In this document: positions 1 to 40,014 of the stretch, piece after piece
How positions within the stretch are numbered: the stretch's first letter is position 1
How the letters are laid out: every line of letters starts with the position of its first letter
IMG/VR virus record: IMGVR_UViG_3300042398_000608
Location: 1 to 40,014 of that record
DNA: 40,014 bases
From: a virus
Strand: one strand, 5' to 3'
Notes under the pieces: model-generated
What the model was told of the DNA's origin: nothing
The model's database searches: none
Seen by the model: the letters and a program-made list of their open reading frames with translations, nothing else
Translations under genes and position numbers: made by a program

Positions 1-697
1 CATCGCAACCGCACTCAACGCCCAAGGGAAAGGCGTGGGGGAGTGGGACGGTGAAAAGGGTGATATTTACAACACCTCCAGTGAAGCAATGACTCAAGAA
101 GATGATTTGTTAATTCCAAAGCAAGCACCCGTGGAGGAAGACGACATGGATGGCGAATACGAGGATAGTCTCAAGGATCAAATTGGGGACATCATTCTTG
201 ATGGTTCTCTTGACGATTCCGCAAAGATTGAAAAGCTTTTGGCCCTTTGCTCAAACGGGGATGAAAGTTCATCTGAAGGTGAAATTGATGGCGAAATGAA
301 TGAGGCTGAAGAACCAGCTATTTCAATCGGTGATGAAGATGAAGAAGACATGGAAGAAGAACAATATGAACTCATGAAAACTGAGGAATCATTGCGACGA
401 ACCAAGTCCAACCCGGCAGTCCGAAAGTTGATTGAAGAGGTGGATGCCTACCGTGCCCGTGACAAAAGGGAAAGGCTTGTCAAGGAGGCCAAGAAATTCT
501 GCGAGGCTTCAAGCCTTCCAAAATATTCAATCACGGAAGCATTCCTTGGAATCCTTGCCGATTCCAGCAAGAAGAATTGGAGACCACTGATTGATGACAG
601 GCGCAAAGTCATTTATAGGGGTGAGGCACCTGTTTCGTCCGTGGCTCAAAATGGCGATTTGACGGTTGATTCATTGGTCAAAGCTTTACGCTCTTAA
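1..697 (+). CDS. 3' part of acidic scaffold-like protein (continues from 39559 across the circular join)
   Basis: This is the C-terminal 231 residues of a 341-residue protein whose start lies at 39559; the frame enters here at base 2 and stays open through the 127-base overlap, so the GTG at 35 is not the true start. The protein is strongly acidic in the middle, with runs of Glu and Asp and one EEDMEEEQ stretch, and has a charged, probably helical C-terminal third. No enzyme motif is visible. It sits between the prohead protease and the decoration and major capsid genes, the usual place for a scaffolding or core protein, so that role is inferred from position and composition only. It is followed 20 bp later by the decoration gene. 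Confidence 0.75.
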   Translation, partial: IATALNAQGKGVGEWDGEKGDIYNTSSEAMTQEDDLLIPKQAPVEEDDMDGEYEDSLKDQIGDIILDGSLDDSAKIEKLLALCSNGDESSSEGEIDGEMNEAEEPAISIGDEDEEDMEEEQYELMKTEESLRRTKSNPAVRKLIEEVDAYRARDKRERLVKEAKKFCEASSLPKYSITEAFLGILADSSKKNWRPLIDDRRKVIYRGEAPVSSVAQNGDLTVDSLVKALRS

Positions 698-5922: not shown

Positions 5923-6176
5923 TTCCTCACTATCCTCAGATGGTCGCTGGTTTGATTGATGAGCCTTACCTTCTGAAGATGGAAGAAATATCACAGCTGA
6001 CCCTGCGCCAAATCGTGATGCTTTACTACCGAAAAAGGGATGACAAAGGCAAGCCTTTACCATTGCCGTATGGGTTCGATGATCCTGAGGCAGAAAAGAA
6101 AAAAGTGTATGAGTTTTGGCTGTACACAGGGATGGAAGAAGAAAAGGCAAGGAGATTAGTTTATGGCAGCTGGTGA
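5895..6176 (+). CDS. -1 frameshift extension, gpGT-like tail assembly chaperone
   Basis: The second reading frame of the chaperone pair: after slippage at GGGAAAG the ribosome reads GGG AAA and then from 5895, giving a predicted 233-residue fusion (140 residues of the upstream protein plus 93 here). The extension contains a compact charged domain (QMVAGLIDEPYLLKMEEISQ and LRQIVMLYYRKRDDKGKPLP) without its own good start signal. Its overlap with the tape measure start at 6163 is the typical arrangement. A stand-alone ATG at 5940 is a poorer alternative. Confidence 0.7.
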   Translation, partial: AADGGAGHLIPHYPQMVAGLIDEPYLLKMEEISQLTLRQIVMLYYRKRDDKGKPLPLPYGFDDPEAEKKKVYEFWLYTGMEEEKARRLVYGSW

Positions 6177-7626
6177 CGCAGCGATGCAGATGCTGGCTCA
6201 AGCCTTCTCAGGGCTTGCTCAGAACGCAATGTCAGCAACCAGCGCATTAAGGTTGACCAGCCAGCAAGCAACCAAGATCAACTCGCAGTTTTCCAAGTTT
6301 TCTTTGAATCAAATCCGTGGAGTGTTTTCGGACATCGGGTCAAAGTTTTCCAAGTCTTTTTCTGGTCTGTCAACAAATGTCCAAAATTTTGCTAAAGCAT
6401 TGGACCTGTCCGATCAAGATGTTGCTGCTTTCGGGAAAAGACTTTCGTCTTTTTCTTTCACAAAAATACAGTCGCTTTTTAGTTCCGGCATGCTTTCCAA
6501 GTTGGGGAAAGGTGCCTCAGCGGGTGGTGAGGGAATGGCCACAGCAGCTAAAGCAGCTTTTTCCGGTGCCTCTGCTGCGATGATGCGATTTGCTGTTGTG
6601 GGTGGCGTGGCCATGGCCTTAGCAACCAAAGGAATCGTCGCAGCAGCAAAAGGAATCATCAAGGGAATTGAGGTTGTGGCAAAGGGAATGATTCCCGTTG
6701 CCAAGGGGGTGTTTTCTGGCCTTTCTGCAGCAGCTACTGCACCAGTTGCTGCCTTTGGCGCATTAACAGGGGCATTTACAGGAATTATTGACGCCGTTGG
6801 GAGTTTTGTATCATCGTTGAACCCGGCTATCATGGAGCAACTTCAGCTTGCCTTTGACGACCTTTATGCTGTTGTGGGAAAGCTTTTTGTTCCAATCATG
6901 GCAGCGGTTGTTCCGATTGTTCGCACATTCGCTGATGCCCTTCTGCCTGTAGTTCAATCAATGATTCCGGCATTCCAGCTTTTTGCTGATGCAATGATCA
7001 ATCTTGCTGCCCCTGTAATTGGAATCTTCTCAGGCCTTCTTGCGACAATGCAGCCTTACCTTGAGCAGTTTGCCGGAATGGTGGCAAAGATTGCTCAGAC
7101 GATTGGTCAAGGCCTTCAGCCAATAATTGAGGCCATGCTGCCGTATTGGGAAGCCTTGGCAGAAATCATTGTCATGCTCATGGACCCAATCAACCAGCTG
7201 ATTGGCGCACTCATGAGCCTTGCAGCCCCTTTGATCAATCTGATTGTGCCTTACCTTGTACCCGCATTAAAAATGTTGGCCGATGTTGTTGCGTACATTG
7301 TGAATAAGTTCAGCTGGCTGATTGGAAAGATTGCCGAATTTGCTCAGGGATTTGTTCAGCCCGGGGCTGGTGGAAGGCTAAAGGTGCCTCAGGTAACACC
7401 CGGGGCATCCCGTGGAACAGCAGCTAAAGGCGCACAGTTTACAGGGTTTGCCGAATTTGGTCAGCAAATTATGCAAGCTTCATTTGGAAGCAGCGTAAAC
7501 ACCCCGGAATTCAAGACGGCAGAAAACACAGCAAAGATTGCCGATGGCATTCAAACACTTGTAAGGCAGGGTGAGAATCAAGCACCAGCTGCTCAGATAG
7601 GCCAAGCTGCCCGGGGGAAATTCTAA
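6163..7626 (+). CDS. tape measure protein
   Basis: A 487-residue protein right after the chaperone pair with AAGGAG 8 bp before ATG 6163. It is alanine-, glycine- and hydrophobic-rich, with several long hydrophobic runs (for example near 6600-6780 and 7000-7310) that are typical of tape measure proteins inserted in the host membrane, and charged helical ends. The length is short for the family. If the usual proportion applies, the tail would be on the order of 70 nm; this is an estimate. It would set tail length and form the channel for DNA entry. Confidence 0.8.
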   Translation: MAAGDAAMQMLAQAFSGLAQNAMSATSALRLTSQQATKINSQFSKFSLNQIRGVFSDIGSKFSKSFSGLSTNVQNFAKALDLSDQDVAAFGKRLSSFSFTKIQSLFSSGMLSKLGKGASAGGEGMATAAKAAFSGASAAMMRFAVVGGVAMALATKGIVAAAKGIIKGIEVVAKGMIPVAKGVFSGLSAAATAPVAAFGALTGAFTGIIDAVGSFVSSLNPAIMEQLQLAFDDLYAVVGKLFVPIMAAVVPIVRTFADALLPVVQSMIPAFQLFADAMINLAAPVIGIFSGLLATMQPYLEQFAGMVAKIAQTIGQGLQPIIEAMLPYWEALAEIIVMLMDPINQLIGALMSLAAPLINLIVPYLVPALKMLADVVAYIVNKFSWLIGKIAEFAQGFVQPGAGGRLKVPQVTPGASRGTAAKGAQFTGFAEFGQQIMQASFGSSVNTPEFKTAENTAKIADGIQTLVRQGENQAPAAQIGQAARGKF

Positions 7627-26934: not shown

Positions 26935-27581
26935 GCATTCAGGAGCAGGTTCCTTTATGGCAAGAGGTTCATGTCAGGCTTTACTCCACACCCGGCGACA
27001 AATGGTGGGAGACATACGCAATCTGGACAAGATTGTTTGAGGCTGAGGGGTGGACAGATGAACAGGTGGTGAATGCCGTTTACAGGACAGCAAGAAGGGA
27101 TGTTTTGCCCCGATTTGCCCCTGAGCACCTTCAGGCAATCCGTGAGGAACTGCGGATGATGTTCAAGGAGCAGTCTGACCTGAGGCGCAAGCAGGCCGAT
27201 GAGGTTGGTTGTGACGCTTGTTCAGGTACGGGTTGGATTTGCGATTTGCCTCACCCTGAGCATGTCGTTGAGGGAAGGTGGATGCAAAATCTTGGAATGT
27301 ACTACACCGTGGCGGTTTGCTGCTTTTGCATGAAGGGGCAAGGAATCAAGGCCTTTGTCACGGCTCACTGGGCAAAACAGCCCGTGCGTGAGGGTGAATC
27401 GCCAATGTGCTGGGACTCATACACCAAGAGAAATCCCGAATACAAAGCACAAATAGATGTTCGTGAGAGTTTGAGGCAGGCTGAAAGGGAATCAAACCGC
27501 AACAAGGCAGCTTCATCTAATGACGAAACAAAGAAAAGACTTCACGAGATCATGGCCAAGATTGGGGGTATGCGGAAATGA
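26931..27581 (+). CDS. zinc-binding replication-associated protein, putative helicase loader
   Basis: A 216-residue protein overlapping the initiator by ATGA. The central part contains two Cys pairs (GCDACSGTGWICD ... AVCCFCMKGQG), a DnaJ-like zinc-ribbon pattern, flanked by helical segments rich in Arg and Glu. Such a gene after an initiator is often a helicase loader or a replication accessory; this role is an inference. The next gene overlaps its stop by ATGA. Confidence 0.5.
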   Translation: MSIQEQVPLWQEVHVRLYSTPGDKWWETYAIWTRLFEAEGWTDEQVVNAVYRTARRDVLPRFAPEHLQAIREELRMMFKEQSDLRRKQADEVGCDACSGTGWICDLPHPEHVVEGRWMQNLGMYYTVAVCCFCMKGQGIKAFVTAHWAKQPVREGESPMCWDSYTKRNPEYKAQIDVRESLRQAERESNRNKAASSNDETKKRLHEIMAKIGGMRK

Positions 27582-28126
27582 AATTGACAAAAAAGCAAAG
27601 CAAGCTGGTTGAAAAGAACATTGGGGTTGCTTATTGGTTTTGCGGAAAGCGCAAGATTCCCTACGGGTTTACAATCGATGAGCTTGTTAGTGAATACTTG
27701 GAAACTGTGTGTATTGCAGCAACAAAATGGATACCCGGTGATGGGCGAACATTTCAGAATTTCGCCATTCACGCCATGTCATTTAGGTGGTCCGAACTGG
27801 TCAGGAGGAGCAGGACAAAAAAGCGTGGCGGTGATGTTTTATTGCAAAGCCTTGACAAGGAGTGGGAGGATGGAACCTTATCAGAGCATGAGAATTTAGG
27901 AATTTTTCAGATTGACCACATTGAAAAGATGGAGGAGCACAACGCTGTTGCCGATGCTTTGAAAACCTTGGACCGGCAAGAAAGGGCTGTTTTTAAGGCA
28001 AAAATGAAAGGCCTTACCTTCAAGGAGATGGAAAAGCAGCTTTCAAGGAGGAAGGAAAGGCTGAGGCAGGTTTACAGTGAGGTTGAGCAGAAGGTGAGAA
28101 GATTTGTGTTGCGCCGGTTTGCTTGA
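27578..28126 (+). CDS. sigma-70-like factor 1
   Basis: A 182-residue protein with sigma region-2-like features (VAYWFCGKR, DELVSEYLETVCIAATKW, RTFQNFAIHAMSFRWSELVR) and a C-terminal region-4-like helix-turn-helix (LKTLDRQERAVFKAKMKGLT, FKEMEKQLSRRKERLRQVYS). It may direct host RNA polymerase to phage promoters in late development, or it could be a divergent regulatory relative. Overlaps the preceding gene by ATGA. Confidence 0.55.
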   Translation: MKLTKKQSKLVEKNIGVAYWFCGKRKIPYGFTIDELVSEYLETVCIAATKWIPGDGRTFQNFAIHAMSFRWSELVRRSRTKKRGGDVLLQSLDKEWEDGTLSEHENLGIFQIDHIEKMEEHNAVADALKTLDRQERAVFKAKMKGLTFKEMEKQLSRRKERLRQVYSEVEQKVRRFVLRRFA

Positions 28127-30534: not shown

Positions 30535-30756
30535 ATGATCCAATTTAGCGAAACCATGCTCAAAAGATGTTTGCAAAACTGCATTACAACTTTGCAGGGA
30601 ATTCTTGAGTCAGGTGATGAAAAAAACAAGATTGAGGCATCTGTACAGCTTGCTCACTTGATAATGAATATCCATAGGCTGAAGATGGAAGAAGAAAACC
30701 AGCAGATGCTGGATGATTCGGATGACAACATTGAAGGTGAGGAATGGAAGTCATGA
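30535..30756 (+). CDS. small acidic helical protein
   Basis: A 73-residue protein with a helical N-terminus and an acidic C-terminus (MLDDSDDNIEGEEWKS). Its end overlaps the ParB-like gene by ATGA, so it is likely co-translated with it. Function unknown; might be a partner of the ParB-like protein. Confidence 0.5.
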   Translation: MIQFSETMLKRCLQNCITTLQGILESGDEKNKIEASVQLAHLIMNIHRLKMEEENQQMLDDSDDNIEGEEWKS

Positions 30757-31406
30757 AGATCAAAGACCGAATCAAGGAATTGCGCCGGGTGAAGGCATCT
30801 GAAATCCTTCCCAATCCCAAGAACTGGCGGACGCACGGCAAAGACCAATCGGATGCCCTCAAGGGTGTCCTTGCGGAAATAGGGTTTGCCAATGCCGTTC
30901 TTGCCCGGGAAACCAAGGAAGGCTTGATGTTGGTCGATGGCCATCTCAGGACGGAAACAGCAGGTGATACGCTAATTCCCGTGTTGGTTCTTGATGTCAA
31001 TGAGGATGAGGCTGACAAGCTGCTTTTGACCCTTGACCCTTTGGCCAGCATGGCCGGAACCAACGCCAAGGCCTTGGAGGAGCTGCTGGACAATGTCCGC
31101 ACAGACAATTTTGCTGTCAGCTCAATGCTTGCTCAGCTGCGTGAGCAAACTGTCAACTTCAACGAAATCGACAATCTGACCAACAAAGACGGCACGGAAA
31201 CAATTCTCAAGTCCAAGGATGACTATGAGTCAGCGACCATACGGCAGATGGTCCTGACCTTCAACAATGACCAATACGAAATGGTGATTGAGGCTTTTGC
31301 TGAGTATTGTGAGAAGAATGGCCTGTCAAGCAACACGGAAGCCGTTGTAAATCTTCTCCATGAGCAGGGGTATCATGTTAATCCACGCCAAACTGAAACC
31401 GATTGA
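30753..31406 (+). CDS. ParB/Spo0J-like N-terminal domain protein
   Basis: A 217-residue protein with ParB N-terminal features: ASEILPNPKNWRTHG, QSDALKGVLAEIGFANAVLA, and MLVDGHLRTETAG, the last matching the nucleotide-binding box. ParB-like proteins bind or cut nucleic acid or use NTPs. ATG 30753 overlaps the previous stop. It is the first gene of the modification cluster, and ParB-like genes are known to accompany TET/JBP and terminase genes in phages. Its role here could be to direct modification or packaging; unproven. Confidence 0.7.
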   Translation: MKIKDRIKELRRVKASEILPNPKNWRTHGKDQSDALKGVLAEIGFANAVLARETKEGLMLVDGHLRTETAGDTLIPVLVLDVNEDEADKLLLTLDPLASMAGTNAKALEELLDNVRTDNFAVSSMLAQLREQTVNFNEIDNLTNKDGTETILKSKDDYESATIRQMVLTFNNDQYEMVIEAFAEYCEKNGLSSNTEAVVNLLHEQGYHVNPRQTETD

Positions 31407-32187
31407 TTTTGACAAGTACAAAGGGAAATCCGCCAGCGAAGACGATTGCAAGCAGCTAATTGATTATGACGCTGAAATCTATGTAAACGGCAAGCTGGCG
31501 ATTGCCTACAAGCATCACCTTGATGACCCCGTTCTTGAAACGCTAAGGTCAAGCATGGTCAAGGTGCCCTACACCGTCTCCAACCGATCATCCGGCATGA
31601 GGTCAACCAGCAGAATATTTGGCTATGCTCCAAGGCTTGCGATCAAGAATCAGCCATGCCGGGTTACAAGCCTTGCGTATGACAGCCCATCAGAACACAA
31701 GGTGCTTTGCCAGACGGCAAAGGTTGTTGAGGGATATTACCGCCAAGTCAATCCAAGCCTTTATGAGCGACACTCATCACTCAGCAATCAAAATCTTGAC
31801 GGGAATTGGAAGCTTGAGGAAACATGCTTCACCTCTGGAATTGCCAATGACTGCAACCCGCTCAAATACCATTTTGACTCAGGAAATTATGTTGGTGTAT
31901 GGTCCGGCATGATTGTTCTGAAAAAGGATATTTCTGGCGGAAAGTTGGCAATTCCAGAATTAAATATGACCTTGGAGTGCGGTGACAAATCCCTTGTTTT
32001 GTTTGATGGCCAAGGCTTGCTTCACGGTGTCACGCCAATACACAAGAAAAAACCAGATGGGCGCAGGTTTTCAGTGGTTTACTACAGCCTGAAGGGAATG
32101 TGGAAATGTTTGGGCGTTGATGATGAGGTTGATCGTCTGAGGGAAATTCGCACAAGGATTGAACGCAAGAAAAGGTCATCTGAATGA
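31375..32187 (+). CDS. TET/JBP-type 2-oxoglutarate/Fe(II) dioxygenase
   Basis: A 270-residue protein with the double-stranded beta-helix iron site: HFD (His166, Asp168) in NPLKYHFDSGNYVGVWSG, His217 in FDGQGLLHGVTPI and Arg230/231 in DGRRFSVVYYS for 2-oxoglutarate. The surrounding pattern (VLKKDISGGKLAIPELNM; VVYYSLKGMW) is that of phage TET/JBP enzymes, which hydroxylate the 5-methyl group of a base in DNA. ATG 31375 is chosen; ATG 31360 has no ribosome site. It would open the modification path. Confidence 0.75.
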   Translation: MLIHAKLKPIDFDKYKGKSASEDDCKQLIDYDAEIYVNGKLAIAYKHHLDDPVLETLRSSMVKVPYTVSNRSSGMRSTSRIFGYAPRLAIKNQPCRVTSLAYDSPSEHKVLCQTAKVVEGYYRQVNPSLYERHSSLSNQNLDGNWKLEETCFTSGIANDCNPLKYHFDSGNYVGVWSGMIVLKKDISGGKLAIPELNMTLECGDKSLVLFDGQGLLHGVTPIHKKKPDGRRFSVVYYSLKGMWKCLGVDDEVDRLREIRTRIERKKRSSE

Positions 32188-32915
32188 GTGTTGTAAACTT
32201 TGGCGTTCAACTAATCCAGACGATGGACCTTGATCCGGTCTATGTGGCAGTCCACCGGGCAAAACTTCCCAAACAAATCCTGAGAAAATGGTTGCTTGCT
32301 TACTGGTGTTACTACCACGCAGGGGTTGCCTCAAAAATTGCAACCGCAGATGATTGGCACAAGGAAGCCCAAGCCTTGTATTCCTCATGCCCAAGAGGTG
32401 CTGAGCGCAGACACTTCCGTGGTAAAAATGGGCAAGATGCTTTGGACTACCTCAGGGACAAATTCCCATGTGCGGAATCAGCTGTTGAAGGCCTTGAGGC
32501 TATTTGCCCAGCAGACTACGCAACCTTGGCAGGAAAAGTGCGTGAGTGGAAAGGCTTTGGGCCTTGGATTGCCTTCAAGGCTGCTGACATGATGGAGCGT
32601 GTTGTTGGGGCCAAAGTTGATTTTTCATCAATGAAACTGGACATCTACGATGAACCGGCAAAAGCTGCCAAGCTCATTTTTCCTCATCTGACCCCCAACG
32701 AAACAGCAAAAAAGCTTGCGGAATCACTAAGTGAGCATCTTGCTCCACCTTTGTTTGACCGGCCAATCAATGTTCAAGAGGCTGAAACGGTGCTATGCAA
32801 GTACAAATCTCACATGAAAGGGCATTACCCGGTCGGCAAGGATTCCCGTGAGTTGCGTCATGCCCTGAAGGGGTGGGGGATGCTTGCCTCAAAGATTGCT
32901 GAAGGTGTGCCATGA
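32184..32915 (+). CDS. alpha-glutamyl/putrescinyl-thymine pyrophosphorylase-type, amino acid:DNA transferase-like
   Basis: A 243-residue protein with the hallmark blocks of this family: LRKWLLAYWCYYHAGVAS, then SCPRGAERRHFRG, and WKGFGPWIAFKAADMMERV. Members replace the activating phosphate group on 5-hydroxymethylpyrimidine in phage DNA by an amino acid or amine (glycine in M6-type phages). ATG 32184 overlaps the dioxygenase stop by ATGA, and its end overlaps the FAD gene start by ATGA. Strong family resemblance; exact substrate unknown. Confidence 0.8.
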   Translation: MSVVNFGVQLIQTMDLDPVYVAVHRAKLPKQILRKWLLAYWCYYHAGVASKIATADDWHKEAQALYSSCPRGAERRHFRGKNGQDALDYLRDKFPCAESAVEGLEAICPADYATLAGKVREWKGFGPWIAFKAADMMERVVGAKVDFSSMKLDIYDEPAKAAKLIFPHLTPNETAKKLAESLSEHLAPPLFDRPINVQEAETVLCKYKSHMKGHYPVGKDSRELRHALKGWGMLASKIAEGVP

Positions 32916-33670
32916 GATTTCTTGTTGTGGGCGGTGGGCTGGTTGGGGGTGTTTTCGCCAAGCTGGCAAGAAAAAACAATCATGATGTTGTTGTTTTTGA
33001 CTGTAACAAGCCCTTGTCCGCATCCCCAGCAGCTGCCTGTCTTCTCAAAGAAAGCTGGGTTGCCGGTGGTTATTACCGGGAAGCCGTTGAAACCCTCTCA
33101 ACCATTGCGAGGCCAAGGACAATTCTTTTTGAAAAGCAGGGTGAGGCAACTTCCTTCAGGCCGTGCGATTTGATGGAGAAAAAGCCTGTAAACGAACAAA
33201 TTGTCAAGGTTGCGAATGGTTCTGTCACTACGGCAATCGGCAAAACCTTCCTTGGGGATTATGTTGTTGTTGCTGCCGGAGTTCACACGAAATCCCTGAC
33301 CGGCATCAATGTTTATGGCCTTGCGGGGATGGCCTTGGTTTATCAGGGCGAACACCGACCACACTACGAAACATGGGCCCCTTACAAACAAATTGTCAGT
33401 TTCAGCCGTGATCCCGGGTCCACTTATGTTAGTGACGGGACAGCTTTGAAATCTTGGCAACCCGACAACACAAAAAGGCTTGTCAAACACGCAGCAAGAG
33501 CTGGACTGTACAAAAGATTCAGCCCCTTGTTTGGCTATCGGCCATACACCGACACCGAACCAGAATTGATCAGGCTTGACTCAAGGATTTGGGTTGCAAC
33601 CGGAACAAGAAAGAATGGGACAGTATTGTCCGCAATTTGGGCAAACAAGATTTTGGAATCATCCAAATGA
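32912..33670 (+). CDS. short FAD-dependent oxidoreductase (DAO type)
   Basis: A 252-residue protein with an N-terminal Rossmann dinucleotide site, VVGGGLVGG, and a later FAD-family pattern (YVVVAAGVHTKSL) and end RIWVATGTRKNG. It is shorter than most amine oxidases of this fold (370-400 residues). In M6-like phages a glycine-oxidase-like FAD enzyme trims the attached glycine to an aminomethyl group; the same is proposed here. Overlaps the previous and next genes by ATGA. Confidence 0.75.
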   Translation: MRFLVVGGGLVGGVFAKLARKNNHDVVVFDCNKPLSASPAAACLLKESWVAGGYYREAVETLSTIARPRTILFEKQGEATSFRPCDLMEKKPVNEQIVKVANGSVTTAIGKTFLGDYVVVAAGVHTKSLTGINVYGLAGMALVYQGEHRPHYETWAPYKQIVSFSRDPGSTYVSDGTALKSWQPDNTKRLVKHAARAGLYKRFSPLFGYRPYTDTEPELIRLDSRIWVATGTRKNGTVLSAIWANKILESSK

Positions 33671-34263
33671 TTCAAGTCATGAATGTAAGAGGTACAAACG
33701 GAAGTGGCAAAACCACCCTGATGCGACGATTGATCATGGAGGACAAGGCCGGGGGTATCATCCGTGTAAACAAAGGAAGAACGCAGGCGCATTACCTTCC
33801 CGGCATCAGGGCTGTTGTTCTTGGAACCTATCACCCGGGAAGGTCCACTGGCGGTTTGGACATGATCCAATCAACCGATGAGGCCTTGGACGCTGCCAAG
33901 GATGTTGCCCTCAACCACCAGCCATTCCCGTTGCGCTTTCTTTTTTTTGAAGGCATCATTTGCTCAACGGTATTTCAAACATGGCTAGACTACAGCCTAA
34001 TTTTGCGCAGGGATGGCGATTGCGGGATGACTTGGGCCTTCTTGCACACGCCGGTCAAACAGTGCTTAGAACGCATTAGGATGCGTCAAACGGCAAGAGG
34101 AAAGCTCAAGCCAATAAATTGTGGGCTGGTTGAGCAAAAATACACCACAATTATGAGGATCAGGCAAAAGGTTTTGGACAGCGGTGAATCCCTGCTGGAC
34201 TTGCCTCAAGGGGGTGAGTTTGATGTTCTCAAGGGTTGGATAGCGCAATTTTGCAAGGATTAA
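33667..34263 (+). CDS. P-loop kinase, 5-hydroxymethyluracil-DNA-kinase type
   Basis: A 198-residue protein with Walker A VRGTNGSGKTTLMRRL (Lys15), a STGGLDMIQS block and FFEGIICSTVF, the features of the phage DNA-base kinase group. It should transfer phosphate from ATP to the hydroxymethyl base in DNA, making it reactive for the transferase. It starts at ATG 33667, overlapping the FAD gene by ATGA, and ends three bases before the terminase small subunit. The assigned substrate is inferred. Confidence 0.75.
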   Translation: MIQVMNVRGTNGSGKTTLMRRLIMEDKAGGIIRVNKGRTQAHYLPGIRAVVLGTYHPGRSTGGLDMIQSTDEALDAAKDVALNHQPFPLRFLFFEGIICSTVFQTWLDYSLILRRDGDCGMTWAFLHTPVKQCLERIRMRQTARGKLKPINCGLVEQKYTTIMRIRQKVLDSGESLLDLPQGGEFDVLKGWIAQFCKD

Positions 34264-34265
34264 AC

Positions 34266-34673
34266 ATGGCGGGCAGGCCGATAAAAGTCACTGATGCACA
34301 GATCATTGCCTCAATCCTGAGATGCAAGGGGCTGATCTATTTAGCTGCCAAGGATTTGAGGGTTGATCCAAGCACCATCCATCGCAGGCTTCAGAAAAAG
34401 CCAAAGCTGAGAAAGGTAGTTGAAAAGGAAAGGGGTGAGTTTGTTGACACGGCAGAACTTGCCCTGCTGAATGCTGTAATGCGTGGAGATGCTTGGGCTG
34501 TATGCTTTGCCCTCAAGACCCAAGGAAGGGTCAGAGGTTATTGTGAAAGGCACGAGATTGCCGAATTGTCCCGTGAGTTGGAGGCAATCCGAAATGAACT
34601 TGCAAAAAATGGTCAAGGAAGCGCAGGAAATCAGGCGCAGAATCAGGGAAGGGAAATGCCAGAAAGTCCCTGA
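34266..34673 (+). CDS. terS: terminase small subunit
   Basis: A 135-residue protein, AAGGA six bases before ATG 34266. An N-terminal helix-turn-helix (AQIIASILRCKGLIYLAAKD; DPSTIHRRLQKKPKL) and a following helical oligomerisation part with RGYCERHEIAE match small terminases, which recognise DNA for packaging. Directly overlapped by the large terminase gene. Confidence 0.75.
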   Translation: MAGRPIKVTDAQIIASILRCKGLIYLAAKDLRVDPSTIHRRLQKKPKLRKVVEKERGEFVDTAELALLNAVMRGDAWAVCFALKTQGRVRGYCERHEIAELSRELEAIRNELAKNGQGSAGNQAQNQGREMPESP

Positions 34674-36087
34674 GTGCCCTGTTGAATACGCCAAACAAAA
34701 AGGCTTGAAGTTGACTTCTCAGCAAGTTGCTGCCCTCAAGGCTTTGACCAGCCCGCCATACAGTTTGCTTGTTCGTGCTGCTCACAGCGTTGGCAAGACA
34801 TTTTTGGCTGCTGTTGCTGCTGCTTGGTTTTATGACCGCCACAACCCGGGTCTGTGCTTGACGACAGCCCCAACCTTGTTTTCCGTGCGTGACCTTTTGT
34901 TCAGGGAATTAAGGCGCATCAAGCCTGATGACCCGGATTGGTTACCCAAGGCAACACGCCTCGAGTCCAGCCAAGACCATTGGATTCACGGATTCACGGC
35001 CAGCAAGGGTGATTCCTTCCAAGGAAGGCACATGTCGGACATGATGGTTGTTTTTGATGAGGCTGCTGGCGTTGATGTTGTGTTTTGGGACCGATCCAAG
35101 ACCATGGTTGAGAAAGGGCGCAAGGGCCATTACTTCTTGGCAATTTACAACCCATACGACACAAGCTGCCCAGCTTACATTGAGGAACAATCCGGCGCTC
35201 ACGCTGTAATGGAGATGAGTGCGCTGGATCATCCCAATGTGAAATCCGGCATGGAAATCGTGCCCGGAGCAATCACAAGGTCAACGGTCCACCAAAGGGT
35301 ACACACCGAATGCCGTAAGCTTGAGCCGGGTGAACCCGTTGGCCCAAATTCTTTTGTTTGGGATAGTGAGTATTATGAACCTGAATCGCCTTTGTTTGAG
35401 GTGCAAATCCTTGGCCGTTGGCCTTCCCGGTCTGTTGCGTCTGTTTGGTCAGACCGTGCCCTTGAGTACATCCAGCAGAAGATTCCCATTAACCCGGATT
35501 GGCTTGTCCAAATCGGTTGTGACCCGGCAAGATTTGGCGATGACAGGACAGCCATTTGTATTCGCAAGGGAATGGCAATCATCCACATGGAATTCTACCG
35601 TGGTTGGAGCCTCAACCAGACAGCTGATCGCCTCAAGGAGTTGTGCGGAATTCACCAGACCAACGGGCAACCGGCAAGAGCAATCCCTGTGCTGATTGAC
35701 GCTGCTGGCCTTGGTGCCGGATTGGTGGACATGAGGGGAAGGTCAAGCGACAGGTACAACTTTGTTGAAATCAACTCTGCCCTCAAATCCCGTTGGGAAG
35801 GTGATTACACAAACCTTAGGTCTGAACTTTGGTTCAATGCATCAGAACTGGCGGATGCTGAGCAGATTTCAATTGCTATGCTTCCTGAGGACATCCGGCA
35901 AGCACTCATGCTAGAATTGCGCCAACCCATTTTTACTTTGGATACCCTTCAAAGACGAATGGTTGAGGCAAAAGCAATGACCAAACGCAGGCTAAAGTGC
36001 AGCCCTGACCTTGCGGACGCATTCAACCTTGCTTGCTTCCTGAGGAGCCATGAAGGCTTCACGGAACGGGTCACTGGACGCATCTAG
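34594..36087 (+). CDS. terL: terminase large subunit
   Basis: A 497-residue ATPase-nuclease. Start ATG 34594 with GGAGG upstream; the 34483 ATG would overlap more of the small subunit. Walker A is AAHSVGKTFLA (Lys68), Walker B is MMVVFDEAA (Asp155-Glu156), and the nuclease begins at GCDPARFGDDRT (Asp310), followed by IDAAGLGAGLVD and the last acidic motif near CSPDLADAFNLA. It translocates and cuts the DNA at packaging. Confidence 0.9.
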   Translation: MNLQKMVKEAQEIRRRIREGKCQKVPECPVEYAKQKGLKLTSQQVAALKALTSPPYSLLVRAAHSVGKTFLAAVAAAWFYDRHNPGLCLTTAPTLFSVRDLLFRELRRIKPDDPDWLPKATRLESSQDHWIHGFTASKGDSFQGRHMSDMMVVFDEAAGVDVVFWDRSKTMVEKGRKGHYFLAIYNPYDTSCPAYIEEQSGAHAVMEMSALDHPNVKSGMEIVPGAITRSTVHQRVHTECRKLEPGEPVGPNSFVWDSEYYEPESPLFEVQILGRWPSRSVASVWSDRALEYIQQKIPINPDWLVQIGCDPARFGDDRTAICIRKGMAIIHMEFYRGWSLNQTADRLKELCGIHQTNGQPARAIPVLIDAAGLGAGLVDMRGRSSDRYNFVEINSALKSRWEGDYTNLRSELWFNASELADAEQISIAMLPEDIRQALMLELRQPIFTLDTLQRRMVEAKAMTKRRLKCSPDLADAFNLACFLRSHEGFTERVTGRI

Positions 36088-36112: not shown

Positions 36113-38041
36113 ATGACACAGAAAAATGGCAATGTTGCTACAGGTCCGCAAAAAGTCAAAGAGGCAATGGACCTTTATGCCCAGATGCCTTACTTCCCGT
36201 ATTTGGACACCCGTGACTTGTTTGCGGAGGTTGGGCCATACGGGTTTATGGACGGTGCGCCTCAGCAATACCTGACACGCCGTGACAACAGGATGGCAGG
36301 TGAACTGCTGCCCCTGTACATCAACTGGTGGCAGCTAAAGATTCTCAGGGACAGATCAAGGCAGATAGCAAGAAACAATGAGTTTGCTATTGCTGCAATC
36401 AACGCCCACAGGAATTATGTGGTTGGCACCGGATTCCAGTACACGGCTCAAGCAAGGGTAGACGGGACAAGTCAGGATTTGATACAGCGTGTTCAGGATT
36501 TGGTTGATGTTTTTGTTGAGCACAATCGGATGGCAGAAATTGAGTCAGAGGTTATTTACAGGCTTCATGCTGAGGGTGAGTGCTTTCTCAGGTCATTCCG
36601 TGGAGAAGATGGGCTGATCCGCATTCGGTTTATTGAGCCTGAACTTGTCAGGCCACCGGCAGACGATACCACGCCGCAATCCAGCTTTGGAATAATTTGC
36701 GCCGATGAGGACATCCACCATCGTGTGGGTTATTGGGTGATTGAAAAGCCTTGGAATGATTTGACCCCAACCAAAGTGCTAGCTGACAATATTCTTCACC
36801 TCAGGCTAAATGTAGAATCAAACAGCAAGCGTGGATTGCCCACGATTTATGCAGTGGAAAGCAATTTGCGGGCATCTGAGGATGTCCTTCAATCAATGAT
36901 CGCCATCGCCAAGGCCAGAAGCAAGATTGCCGTCATCAGGAAGGTTAATGACAGCCCACCGGAAGCTGTTCAGGCTTTGACCCAGACAGCAGCCGATTAC
37001 AGCGTGACAGACCCGGTTCAGGGGCGTTCAACAACAATCAATCACATGGGATATGGCAGCATTCTGACAACAACGGGCAATGTTGAATATGAATTCCCAA
37101 GCCTTAATGTTGGCGCAGCAGATTTGACGGAAGTGCTTTCAACCAACCTGAGGGCCATTGCTGCCCGGTTTGGCATTACCGAAACAATGATGTCAACCGA
37201 TGCCAGTAACAACAACTATGCCAGCGCATTGGTGGCGGAAGCACCTGCCGTCAAGACATTTGAACGCATGCAGAAGATGATTGGTCAAGCAGTAGGGGAA
37301 AGGCGCACAAGGCCTGAGAAATCCCTGATTTGGCAGCAGATCACCTACGCTGTTGAGCGTGGGATGCTTCCACGAGATGTCATGGACAAAATCGTGATCA
37401 GGGCCAAGGGACCGCAACTGATCGCAAGGGATTATGACCGTGAGGCCAACACCTCCAAGACATACATGGAAATGGGTCTTTGGTCACCTCAAACCGTCAC
37501 CTCAGAGTCTGGCAAGAATTATGAGGAAGAACAAAGGAACATAAACAAAGCCAAAGAGGAAAGCGCAAGCAAGAATTTTGAGATCAGGTCAAAATATCCT
37601 CGGGGTCAAAATGAAGGTCCACAGGGCCAAGAGTCAGAGGAAGTGGCTGAAGCAACCGATGCGGAAATGGATGAATTTAACAAACTTCTTGCCAAAATGC
37701 CCAAGAGGCAAACAGCTGCTCAGAAAGAAAAAGCTGCCAGAAAAAGGGCAATTGACAGGCTCAAGAAGTCTATGGAGCCATTTCAAAAGATTATTGCCGA
37801 TGTACAGAAAATGCAGGCAACCAAGATGGGGTCACAGGACAGCCGTCTCAGGGACATTATCAACCGTGCCAAAACAAACATTGCACAAATACAAAGGGAA
37901 ATTGACCGATTGAATGCGGAAGGGGTCAAGGAAGCAGACGACAAGCTTTCAAACAAAATTAAAAAGCTAATGGGTGAAGGATACCCGCAGAAACAAGCTG
38001 TTGCGATTGCTCTTTCAATGCAAAGCAGTGGCGAACTGTAG
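36113..38041 (+). CDS. portal protein
   Basis: A 642-residue protein, ATG 36113 with GGAGGG upstream. The middle (RNNEFAIAAINAHRNYVVGTGFQ; FIEPELVRPP; DNILHLRLNVESNSKRGLP) is the lambda gpB/phage portal type, forming the dodecameric channel where DNA enters. The C-terminus is extended, charged and coiled (ADVQKMQATKMGSQDSRL), and ends in a GEGYPQKQAVAIALSMQ motif that also occurs at the end of unrelated phage proteins. Confidence 0.85.
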   Translation: MTQKNGNVATGPQKVKEAMDLYAQMPYFPYLDTRDLFAEVGPYGFMDGAPQQYLTRRDNRMAGELLPLYINWWQLKILRDRSRQIARNNEFAIAAINAHRNYVVGTGFQYTAQARVDGTSQDLIQRVQDLVDVFVEHNRMAEIESEVIYRLHAEGECFLRSFRGEDGLIRIRFIEPELVRPPADDTTPQSSFGIICADEDIHHRVGYWVIEKPWNDLTPTKVLADNILHLRLNVESNSKRGLPTIYAVESNLRASEDVLQSMIAIAKARSKIAVIRKVNDSPPEAVQALTQTAADYSVTDPVQGRSTTINHMGYGSILTTTGNVEYEFPSLNVGAADLTEVLSTNLRAIAARFGITETMMSTDASNNNYASALVAEAPAVKTFERMQKMIGQAVGERRTRPEKSLIWQQITYAVERGMLPRDVMDKIVIRAKGPQLIARDYDREANTSKTYMEMGLWSPQTVTSESGKNYEEEQRNINKAKEESASKNFEIRSKYPRGQNEGPQGQESEEVAEATDAEMDEFNKLLAKMPKRQTAAQKEKAARKRAIDRLKKSMEPFQKIIADVQKMQATKMGSQDSRLRDIINRAKTNIAQIQREIDRLNAEGVKEADDKLSNKIKKLMGEGYPQKQAVAIALSMQSSGEL

Positions 38042-38556
38042 TGAACCCGATGCCGGTCAAACATGACGAAATCCTGAAATATGCACCTTTGGTGAATTAT
38101 TTCGCCAGAAAGTTTATTGGCAGGTATCGGAAGAAGACAACGCTGAATGACTTGGTTCAAGCTGGTTGGTTGGGCCTGATGAAAGGCTTGAAGAATTATG
38201 ACCCAAACCGTGGAATAACTTTGGGTGCCTATTCAAGGGCATGGATTTGGGGGTCAATTTACAAGGAGGCGCATGGCCGGAAAAAAGTCAGGGCTGAGGT
38301 CAGGTTGGGCCTTCCTGTCAATCTTTACGCCAAAGAGGAATGCCTTGTTGACCTCAGGGACACGATTTCATCCCTGCCAGAAATAATTGCTGTTTTCATT
38401 AACCTGATTTGGATTGATGGGGAAACACCGGAATCGGCCTGCTCAAGGATGGGCCTTACGGATGTCAAACCCCAAGAAATGTTGAGGCAAGCACAGGAAT
38501 CCTTGATGGAGGTGATCACTTATTATGGTGATGAGCAAGATTGTGACGATTCATGA
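38041..38556 (+). CDS. sigma-70-like factor 2
   Basis: A 171-residue protein from GTG 38041, sharing one base with the portal stop (ATG 38050 is possible). It has a clear sigma region 2: ILKYAPLVNYFARKFIG, then LNDLVQAGWLGLMKGLKNYD, then GITLGAYSRAWIWGSIYKEA with basic HGRKK. The C-terminal part is less clearly region 4. It is unusual to find it between portal and protease. It could serve as a late sigma factor. Confidence 0.65.
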   Translation: MNPMPVKHDEILKYAPLVNYFARKFIGRYRKKTTLNDLVQAGWLGLMKGLKNYDPNRGITLGAYSRAWIWGSIYKEAHGRKKVRAEVRLGLPVNLYAKEECLVDLRDTISSLPEIIAVFINLIWIDGETPESACSRMGLTDVKPQEMLRQAQESLMEVITYYGDEQDCDDS

Positions 38557-39558: not shown

Positions 39559-40014
39559 ATGGGAATTCTTGCGAATTTGATTGCTGAGGCATACAAGGCC
39601 AAGCAAGTTTTGTCCGCCGTCAATTCAAAGTTTATTGCCGTTGCCCCCAAGCTGCTTAAAGCTGGACCAGCTGGCAGCGATGTTTCCAAGGAAATTAAAG
39701 GCATGATCAACGATGCAGCCCGGGCAGTAAATATGTTGGTTGGCAGCGTTGAAGACGCTGAACAAGAGCTGGCCACAGAATCTGTCAAAAAAGAAGCAGC
39801 TGGCAAAGTCAAAATTTACAACAGCTATGCGTCTTGGAAGGCTGCTGTAAAGAAAGCTGGAGCTGTCAGGATTGATGGCGACAAAGACATCGCAACCGCA
39901 CTCAACGCCCAAGGGAAAGGCGTGGGGGAGTGGGACGGTGAAAAGGGTGATATTTACAACACCTCCAGTGAAGCAATGACTCAAGAAGATGATTTGTTAA
40001 TTCCAAAGCAAGCA
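39559..40014 (+). CDS. 5' part of acidic scaffold-like protein (continues at base 1)
   Basis: Starts at ATG 39559 with AAGGAG eight bases upstream, three bases after the protease stop. It encodes the first 152 residues here and continues at window base 128 after the 127-base repeat, for 341 residues in all. The N-terminus is helical (MGILANLIAEAYKAKQVLSA) and a SYASWKAAVKKAGAVRIDG block precedes a GVGEWDGEKGDIYN motif. Likely scaffold or core protein by position. See the matching 1-697 entry. Confidence 0.75.
   Translation, partial: MGILANLIAEAYKAKQVLSAVNSKFIAVAPKLLKAGPAGSDVSKEIKGMINDAARAVNMLVGSVEDAEQELATESVKKEAAGKVKIYNSYASWKAAVKKAGAVRIDGDKDIATALNAQGKGVGEWDGEKGDIYNTSSEAMTQEDDLLIPKQA
39888..40014. 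repeat. terminal direct repeat identical to 1-127 (assembly overlap)
   Basis: The last 127 bases equal the first 127, and a single frame crosses the join without change. A 127-base length equals a commonly used assembler k-mer, so this is best read as circular closure, not as a biological terminal repeat. Confidence 0.9.

Follow-up and report, generated by a model that had tools for sequence, protein, structure and literature searches.

A ParB-TET gene cluster beside the terminase genes of a 40-kb phage as a probable operon for thymine hypermodification

The five coupled genes in front of the large terminase gene of the phage analysed here probably form a post-replicative thymine hypermodification operon whose final product would be 5-aminomethyl-deoxyuridine (5-aminomethyl-dU). 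The whole stretch of DNA analysed, called the window below, comprises positions 1 to 40,014 of virus record IMGVR_UViG_3300042398_000608. An exact repeat of 127 bp was common to both window ends, so that the record is a complete phage genome of about 39.9 kb, and the absences reported below hold for the whole genome as far as profile searches can tell, which divergent enzymes can escape. Among 50,697 phage records, none matched the cluster side of the phage (24000-39500) at the nucleotide level.

All five cluster ORFs were intact, coupled and on the + strand, with the last stop at 34263; the starts given are likely starts, chosen with homologue support. They encode a ParB-like protein (30753..31406), a TET/JBP Fe(II)/2-oxoglutarate dioxygenase (31375..32187), an amino acid:DNA transferase (ADDT; 32184..32915), a DAO-type flavoenzyme (32912..33670) and a P-loop protein assigned as a 5-hydroxymethyl-dU (5-hmdU) DNA kinase (33667..34263). 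The preceding ORF (30535-30756) overlapped the ParB start by 4 bp, the TET start lay 32 bp inside the ParB gene, with an identical overlap in the relative L015, and 4-bp ATGA overlaps were found at the TET/ADDT, ADDT/FAD and FAD/kinase joints, which confirmed the earlier claim that the five genes are coupled by overlapping starts and stops. A small ORF on the + strand (34266..34673) started 3 bp after the kinase stop, and the terminase large subunit gene adjoining the cluster (34594..36087, + strand; PHROG 1.2e-22) was followed by a lambda-type portal gene. PHROGs matched the small ORF only weakly, and to an unknown family; its homologues precede the terminase in related phages. The claim that the cluster is joined to the terminase genes thus held for the large subunit, while the small ORF is a candidate small terminase by position and conservation only.

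Assignment of the TET ORF was based on its profile, its ligands and its predicted structure. Pfam placed it in Tet_JBP (3.8e-13, above the curated cut-off), and the iron triad H171-x-D173...H222 and the 2-oxoglutarate (2OG)-binding R236 were invariant in 37 phage homologues. L244 was a further invariant TET residue, at the site where human TET2 has a base-contacting His (H1904). A single-sequence search against solved structures found nothing, and the structural model (pLDDT 94) was matched by Foldseek to CMD1, CcTET, NgTET1 and human TET2 with E values of 1e-9 or better. The HxD...H triad, the 2OG-binding Arg and the TET fold that mark the TET/JBP family were therefore all present. The ParB-like ORF received no call from Pfam; it matched the PHROG 'ParB-like partition protein' (2.6e-14), and its AlphaFold model matched ParB, Noc, KorB and sulfiredoxin (Srx) structures, the best at 1.9e-6. 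Residues N27, G66 and R69 (GHxR motif) were conserved among 28 homologues. Model and alignment together place the protein in the ParB/Srx fold, that is, the fold of the ParB N-domain with the conserved G-H-x-R, and the protein is probably a DNA- or nucleotide-binding partner of TET. Of 82 TET loci (kept IMG/VR matches together with reference phages, not fully dereplicated), most, indeed nearly all, had the ParB gene beside TET, and ParB therefore belongs to the wider TET module and is no specific part of the amination pathway.

The remaining three enzymes resembled those of the thymidine hypermodification pathway of Pseudomonas phage PaMx11. The ADDT ORF matched Pfam ADDT at 1.7e-20, above the curated cut-off, its nearest PDB chains were 8z2m ('Glycinyltransferase', 5e-51) and 25qc (3e-48), and it was 41-43% identical to the PaMx11, Sonora and YuA proteins; it is probably a glycinyltransferase acting on 5-phosphomethyl-dU. 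The flavoenzyme matched Pfam DAO (2.3e-9, above the curated cut-off) and was nearest to PDB 8z2o/8z79 'Flavin-dependent lyase' (5e-20). With its relatives it had the motifs GxGxxG, WAPY, GxRPY and TGxxKxG in common, its identity to the characterised or nearest lyases was 32-38%, and it is probably a flavin-dependent lyase that converts the glycyl to the aminomethyl group. Over the aligned stretches, the 8z2m and 8z2o chains had the same sequence as PaMx11 gp46 and gp47 translated from the phage record, and this pair reportedly makes N-alpha-glycyl-thymidine and 5-aminomethyl-dU, in line with a title cited in PMC11946847. The kinase ORF matched Pfam HMUDK_HMUD1 (5e-14, above the curated cut-off) and was 37-38% identical to the Sonora and YuA kinases, with a conserved Walker A motif GSGK[TS]; a single-sequence search of it against solved structures found nothing. 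By these matches the window appears to encode the glycinyltransferase-kind ADDT, the 5-hmdU DNA kinase and the flavin-dependent lyase (PaMx11 branch) of M6/PaMx11-type systems. Profile searches bore out the families named in the sequence-only reading, with Tet_JBP, ADDT, DAO and the 5-hmdU kinase placed by Pfam above cut-off and the fifth protein recognised as ParB-like by PHROGs and fold. The order proposed there, amino acid attachment and then trimming to an aminomethyl base, also held in structure-database and comparative tests, with 8z2m and 8z2o as the nearest solved structures, and the pathway is thus an inference with good support.

Supply of 5-hmdU set the window apart from M6/PaMx11-type systems, in which it presumably comes from a phage dUMP hydroxymethylase. 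Profile search detected no thymidylate-synthase-type dUMP hydroxymethylase (PF00303) in the complete window genome. PF00303 was found in YuA, Sonora and PaMx11, the YuA copy being annotated as a putative deoxyuridylate hydroxymethyltransferase, and no TET was found in these three phages; in the window, L015, L091, LittleMunchkin, Tonitrus and KayaCho, TET was found in all six and the hydroxymethylase in none. Among 94 ADDT loci (scan loci together with named phages, screened with local profiles), 11 had TET without hydroxymethylase, 62 hydroxymethylase without TET, 21 neither, many of these being incomplete, and 0 both. The exclusion gave a Fisher P of 1.9e-6, which is only indicative as the loci are related by descent. 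This perfect complementarity suggests that both enzymes supply the same 5-hmdU intermediate. Family-A DNA polymerase was undetected in the window, L015, L091, L072, L078 and Tonitrus, and was present in 17/17 hydroxymethylase-type records tested and also in two TET actinophage records. No C5-cytosine methyltransferase (PF00145) was found in the complete window genome either. Since hydroxymethylase, C5 methyltransferase and family-A polymerase were all undetected in a complete genome, the source from which TET makes 5-hmdU is probably thymine in already replicated DNA. Read most simply, TET takes the place of the hydroxymethylase, works on thymine once the DNA is finished and spares the phage any remodelling of the nucleotide pool.

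In the proposed pathway, the phage DNA would be synthesised with ordinary thymine, and TET, which the ParB-like protein may guide or load, would oxidise some thymines of the duplex to 5-hmdU. The kinase would phosphorylate the hydroxyl of 5-hmdU, and the ADDT would then bring in an amino acid, most likely glycine, whose amino group displaces the phosphate. The flavoenzyme, judging from the PaMx11 enzymes, would then cleave the appended glycyl group to leave 5-aminomethyl-dU. Profile searches of the whole 40 kb detected no acetyltransferase (GNAT), radical-SAM enzyme or PALP-type PLP enzyme, so that the initial observation that none is visible to elaborate the base further was extended genome-wide for these families, and, with no acetyltransferase detected, the pathway probably stops at the free amine. 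The likely purpose, by analogy with characterised relatives (PMC6449724), would be the protection of phage DNA against host restriction.

A cytosine route, in which TET would oxidise host-methylated 5-methylcytosine (5mC) to 5-hydroxymethylcytosine and the kinase, ADDT and flavoenzyme would carry it on to an aminomethyl-cytosine, has in its favour that the solved TETs matched by the window model act on 5mC DNA, and a study is said to have reported C5-cytosine hypermodification by phage TETs. TET-dependent cytosine hypermodification needs a C5 methyltransferase to make 5mC, which could be a host enzyme. L072 (327 kb), a large record with TET, did carry a C5 DNA methylase, but this was only 1/46 TET records (the window and 45 others); the methylase was absent from the window genome, and a rapid scan of the TET loci for C5-methylase motifs found none. 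The kinase, ADDT and flavoenzyme all belong to the thymidine series, and the complementarity of TET and dUMP hydroxymethylase, which implies a shared 5-hmdU intermediate, also argues against cytosine, so we regard this route as unlikely. On the missing methyltransferase and the downstream enzymes of the thymidine series, thymine rather than 5mC is most likely the TET substrate.

Within the thymine series the end point may be another one, if the ADDT uses a different amino acid or the flavoenzyme oxidises without cleaving, which would leave an amino-acyl or oxidised base. Different ADDT families use different amino acids. An otherwise conserved ADDT stretch reads FDNAAVFMF in PaMx11 and FSSMKLDIY in the window, and with 32% identity the flavoenzyme is a distant relative of 8z2o, so that the amino acid used may differ. 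This outcome is nevertheless rather unlikely, as the solved structures that match the two enzymes best belong together as a glycine-specific pair from a single pathway, and the two genes lie side by side with a 4-bp overlap, which is also their arrangement in PaMx11 and Sonora. That the cluster would act on pool nucleotides, on tRNA or on some target in the host instead of phage DNA seems very improbable. The PHROG labels 'queuine tRNA-ribosyltransferase' for a TET relative and 'terminase small subunit' for the kinase, which would point that way, look like propagated misannotation, whereas the TET model matched DNA-bound DNA dioxygenases and the ADDT and HMUDK are described as DNA-acting families by their Pfam names.

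The genes around TET varied among phages. Within 4.5 kb of TET in the 82 loci, a glycosyltransferase (TAGT or DXD) was found in 30, an FkbM-type methyltransferase in 12, an ADDT in 10, usually together with kinase and flavoenzyme, a kinase alone in 6, and nothing recognised in 24. The sister contigs L013/L014 matched the window at 85% in the portal and 72% in the large terminase (both matches in L013), at 35-83% in the upstream genes, at 61% in ParB and at 55% in TET; in the slot of the window's ADDT-FAD-kinase genes they carried FkbM. All five cluster proteins of L015 were 46-73% identical to those of the window and its small-terminase-like ORF 57%, but its portal only 30%, and a counterpart of the window's large terminase was not found in it. 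From the FkbM exchange in L013/L014 and the shared cluster with divergent packaging genes in L015, the tailoring set appears to move as a unit.

In the nearest five-gene relatives, L015 (the same record as L090) and L091, the order ParB-TET-ADDT-flavoenzyme-kinase was kept beside phage packaging genes. The ADDT tree (midpoint rooted, with two long-branch rows) grouped the window (L002 in the tree), L090 and L091 with 99/97 support among the hydroxymethylase-linked ADDTs, and placed the actinophage TET-linked ADDTs in a separate group (97/92). The kinase families differed in accord with these clades, HMUDK in the window and Ploopntkinase3 in the actinophages. Within the limits set by the rooting and the long branches, the tree suggests that the joining of an M6/PaMx11-type cassette to a TET module was an event separate from that in the actinophages. 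A scan of a genome collection for hosts of close ADDT relatives gave seven loci, none close to the window phage.

For the known phage bases derived from 5-hmdU, the starting point is believed to be a modified nucleotide in the pool. If the reading given here is true, entry through TET would enable a phage of 40 kb, in which no polymerase or nucleotide-metabolism genes of its own were detected, to gain an amine-bearing base after replication, and the TET, kinase, glycinyltransferase and flavin lyase would make up a natural toolkit with which primary amines could be put on the thymine of ordinary DNA. A wider proposal, which we hold to be possible but somewhat short of probable, is that ParB-linked phage TETs hydroxylate thymine directly in replicated DNA, with no need of hydroxymethylase or phage polymerase, and that the TET neighbourhood is a plug-in site at which sister phages exchange glycosyltransferase, FkbM or amination cassettes, giving several undetected bases such as O-methylated 5-hmdU in the FkbM phages. 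Because TET and hydroxymethylase are complementary in their distribution, the thymine hydroxylation long predicted for phage TETs can be put to a direct test, for which the cultured phages CaiB/LittleMunchkin and Tonitrus and loci in Streptomyces africanus and Brevibacterium genomes also offer material.

Five-gene ParB-TET-pyrophosphorylase-kinase clusters have already been described, before the terminase in Gordonia DR-cluster phages, among them CaiB with its 4-bp overlaps (PMC9302106), and in Rhodococcus phage Tonitrus (PMC11955845), so the window cluster is not categorically new. Like the window, CaiB/LittleMunchkin (genus Sourvirus) and Tonitrus have coupled ParB, TET, ADDT, P-loop kinase and a fifth ORF upstream of the terminase. 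However, the LittleMunchkin and Tonitrus kinases are Ploopntkinase3 (5e-58 and 4e-50) and the window kinase is HMUDK_HMUD1, their ADDTs lie in a separate clade, and their kinase is followed by the fifth ORF, whereas in the window the flavoenzyme is followed by the kinase. The actinophage fifth ORF had no Pfam match, and its assignment as a clear DAO-flavoenzyme orthologue was rejected at an hhalign probability of only 6.5%; its profile matched flavoenzyme-position genes beside other ADDTs, and it is a possible remote relative of the DAO lyase. KayaCho (Mycobacterium B-cluster phages) has ParB and TET coupled before the terminase as in the window, but no ADDT, flavoenzyme or 5-hmdU kinase was recognised at its locus. 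The loci of the TET-associated glycosyltransferase (TAGT) also have ParB-TET near the terminase and a tailoring enzyme beside TET, with glycosyl transfer (base-J-like) where the window has amination. PaMx11 and Sonora (Mesyanzhinovviridae) encode ADDT, flavin-dependent lyase, (GNAT), 5-hmdU DNA kinase and dUMP hydroxymethylase; the ADDT, flavoenzyme and kinase are homologous to those of the window and in the same order, with the Sonora flavoenzyme and kinase 35-37% identical over most of their length. In these phages the hydroxymethylase presumably makes 5-hmdU at the nucleotide level and the phage polymerase incorporates it, whereas in the window both were undetected and TET was present. The window cluster is thus arranged like the CaiB cluster, from which it differs in kinase family and transferase clade, and appears to work like the PaMx11 pathway, of which it would not be a member when membership is judged by the hydroxymethylase.

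The first and last 127 bp of the window (1-127 and 39888-40014) formed an exact repeat with one copy at each end of the record. This repeat shows that the assembly closes into a circle and is complete, with approximately 39,887 bp of unique sequence. Sigma-factor-like genes were located at 27578-28126 (ECF type) and at 38041-38556 (sigma-70 region 2), the latter flanked by the portal gene and the gene after it.

The TET/JBP dioxygenase (TET, 31375-32187) and the 5-hmdU DNA kinase (33667-34263) of the window carried the PHROG labels phrog_6059 and phrog_800, respectively. Many phage records bear the PHROG labels "queuine tRNA-ribosyltransferase" on TETs and "terminase small subunit" on 5-hmdU DNA kinases, both of which look like misannotations.

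A large phage record (L072, 327 kb, and L073) contained two TETs and three ParB-like genes, as well as an amino acid:DNA transferase (ADDT), a flavoenzyme-like gene, a kinase and, distant from the cluster, a C5 DNA methylase. ParB, ADDT, flavoenzyme-like, Ploopntkinase3 and TET genes were also clustered in contigs from bacterial genomes of named strains, Streptomyces africanus (L174) and Brevibacterium sp. (L175, with two flavoenzyme-like genes in tandem).

In the nearest relative, L015, a weak acetyltransferase (GNAT) match was observed a short distance upstream of its five-gene cluster (6108-6626), and the product of this candidate gene could acetylate the aminomethyl base. An FkbM-type methyltransferase overlapped the TET in L013 (6517-7191), L014 (7541-8215), L016 (5530-6237) and nine further loci of sister and related phages, and could yield O-methylated 5-hmdU. 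In these phages, it occupied the position held by the ADDT, FAD enzyme and kinase in the window.
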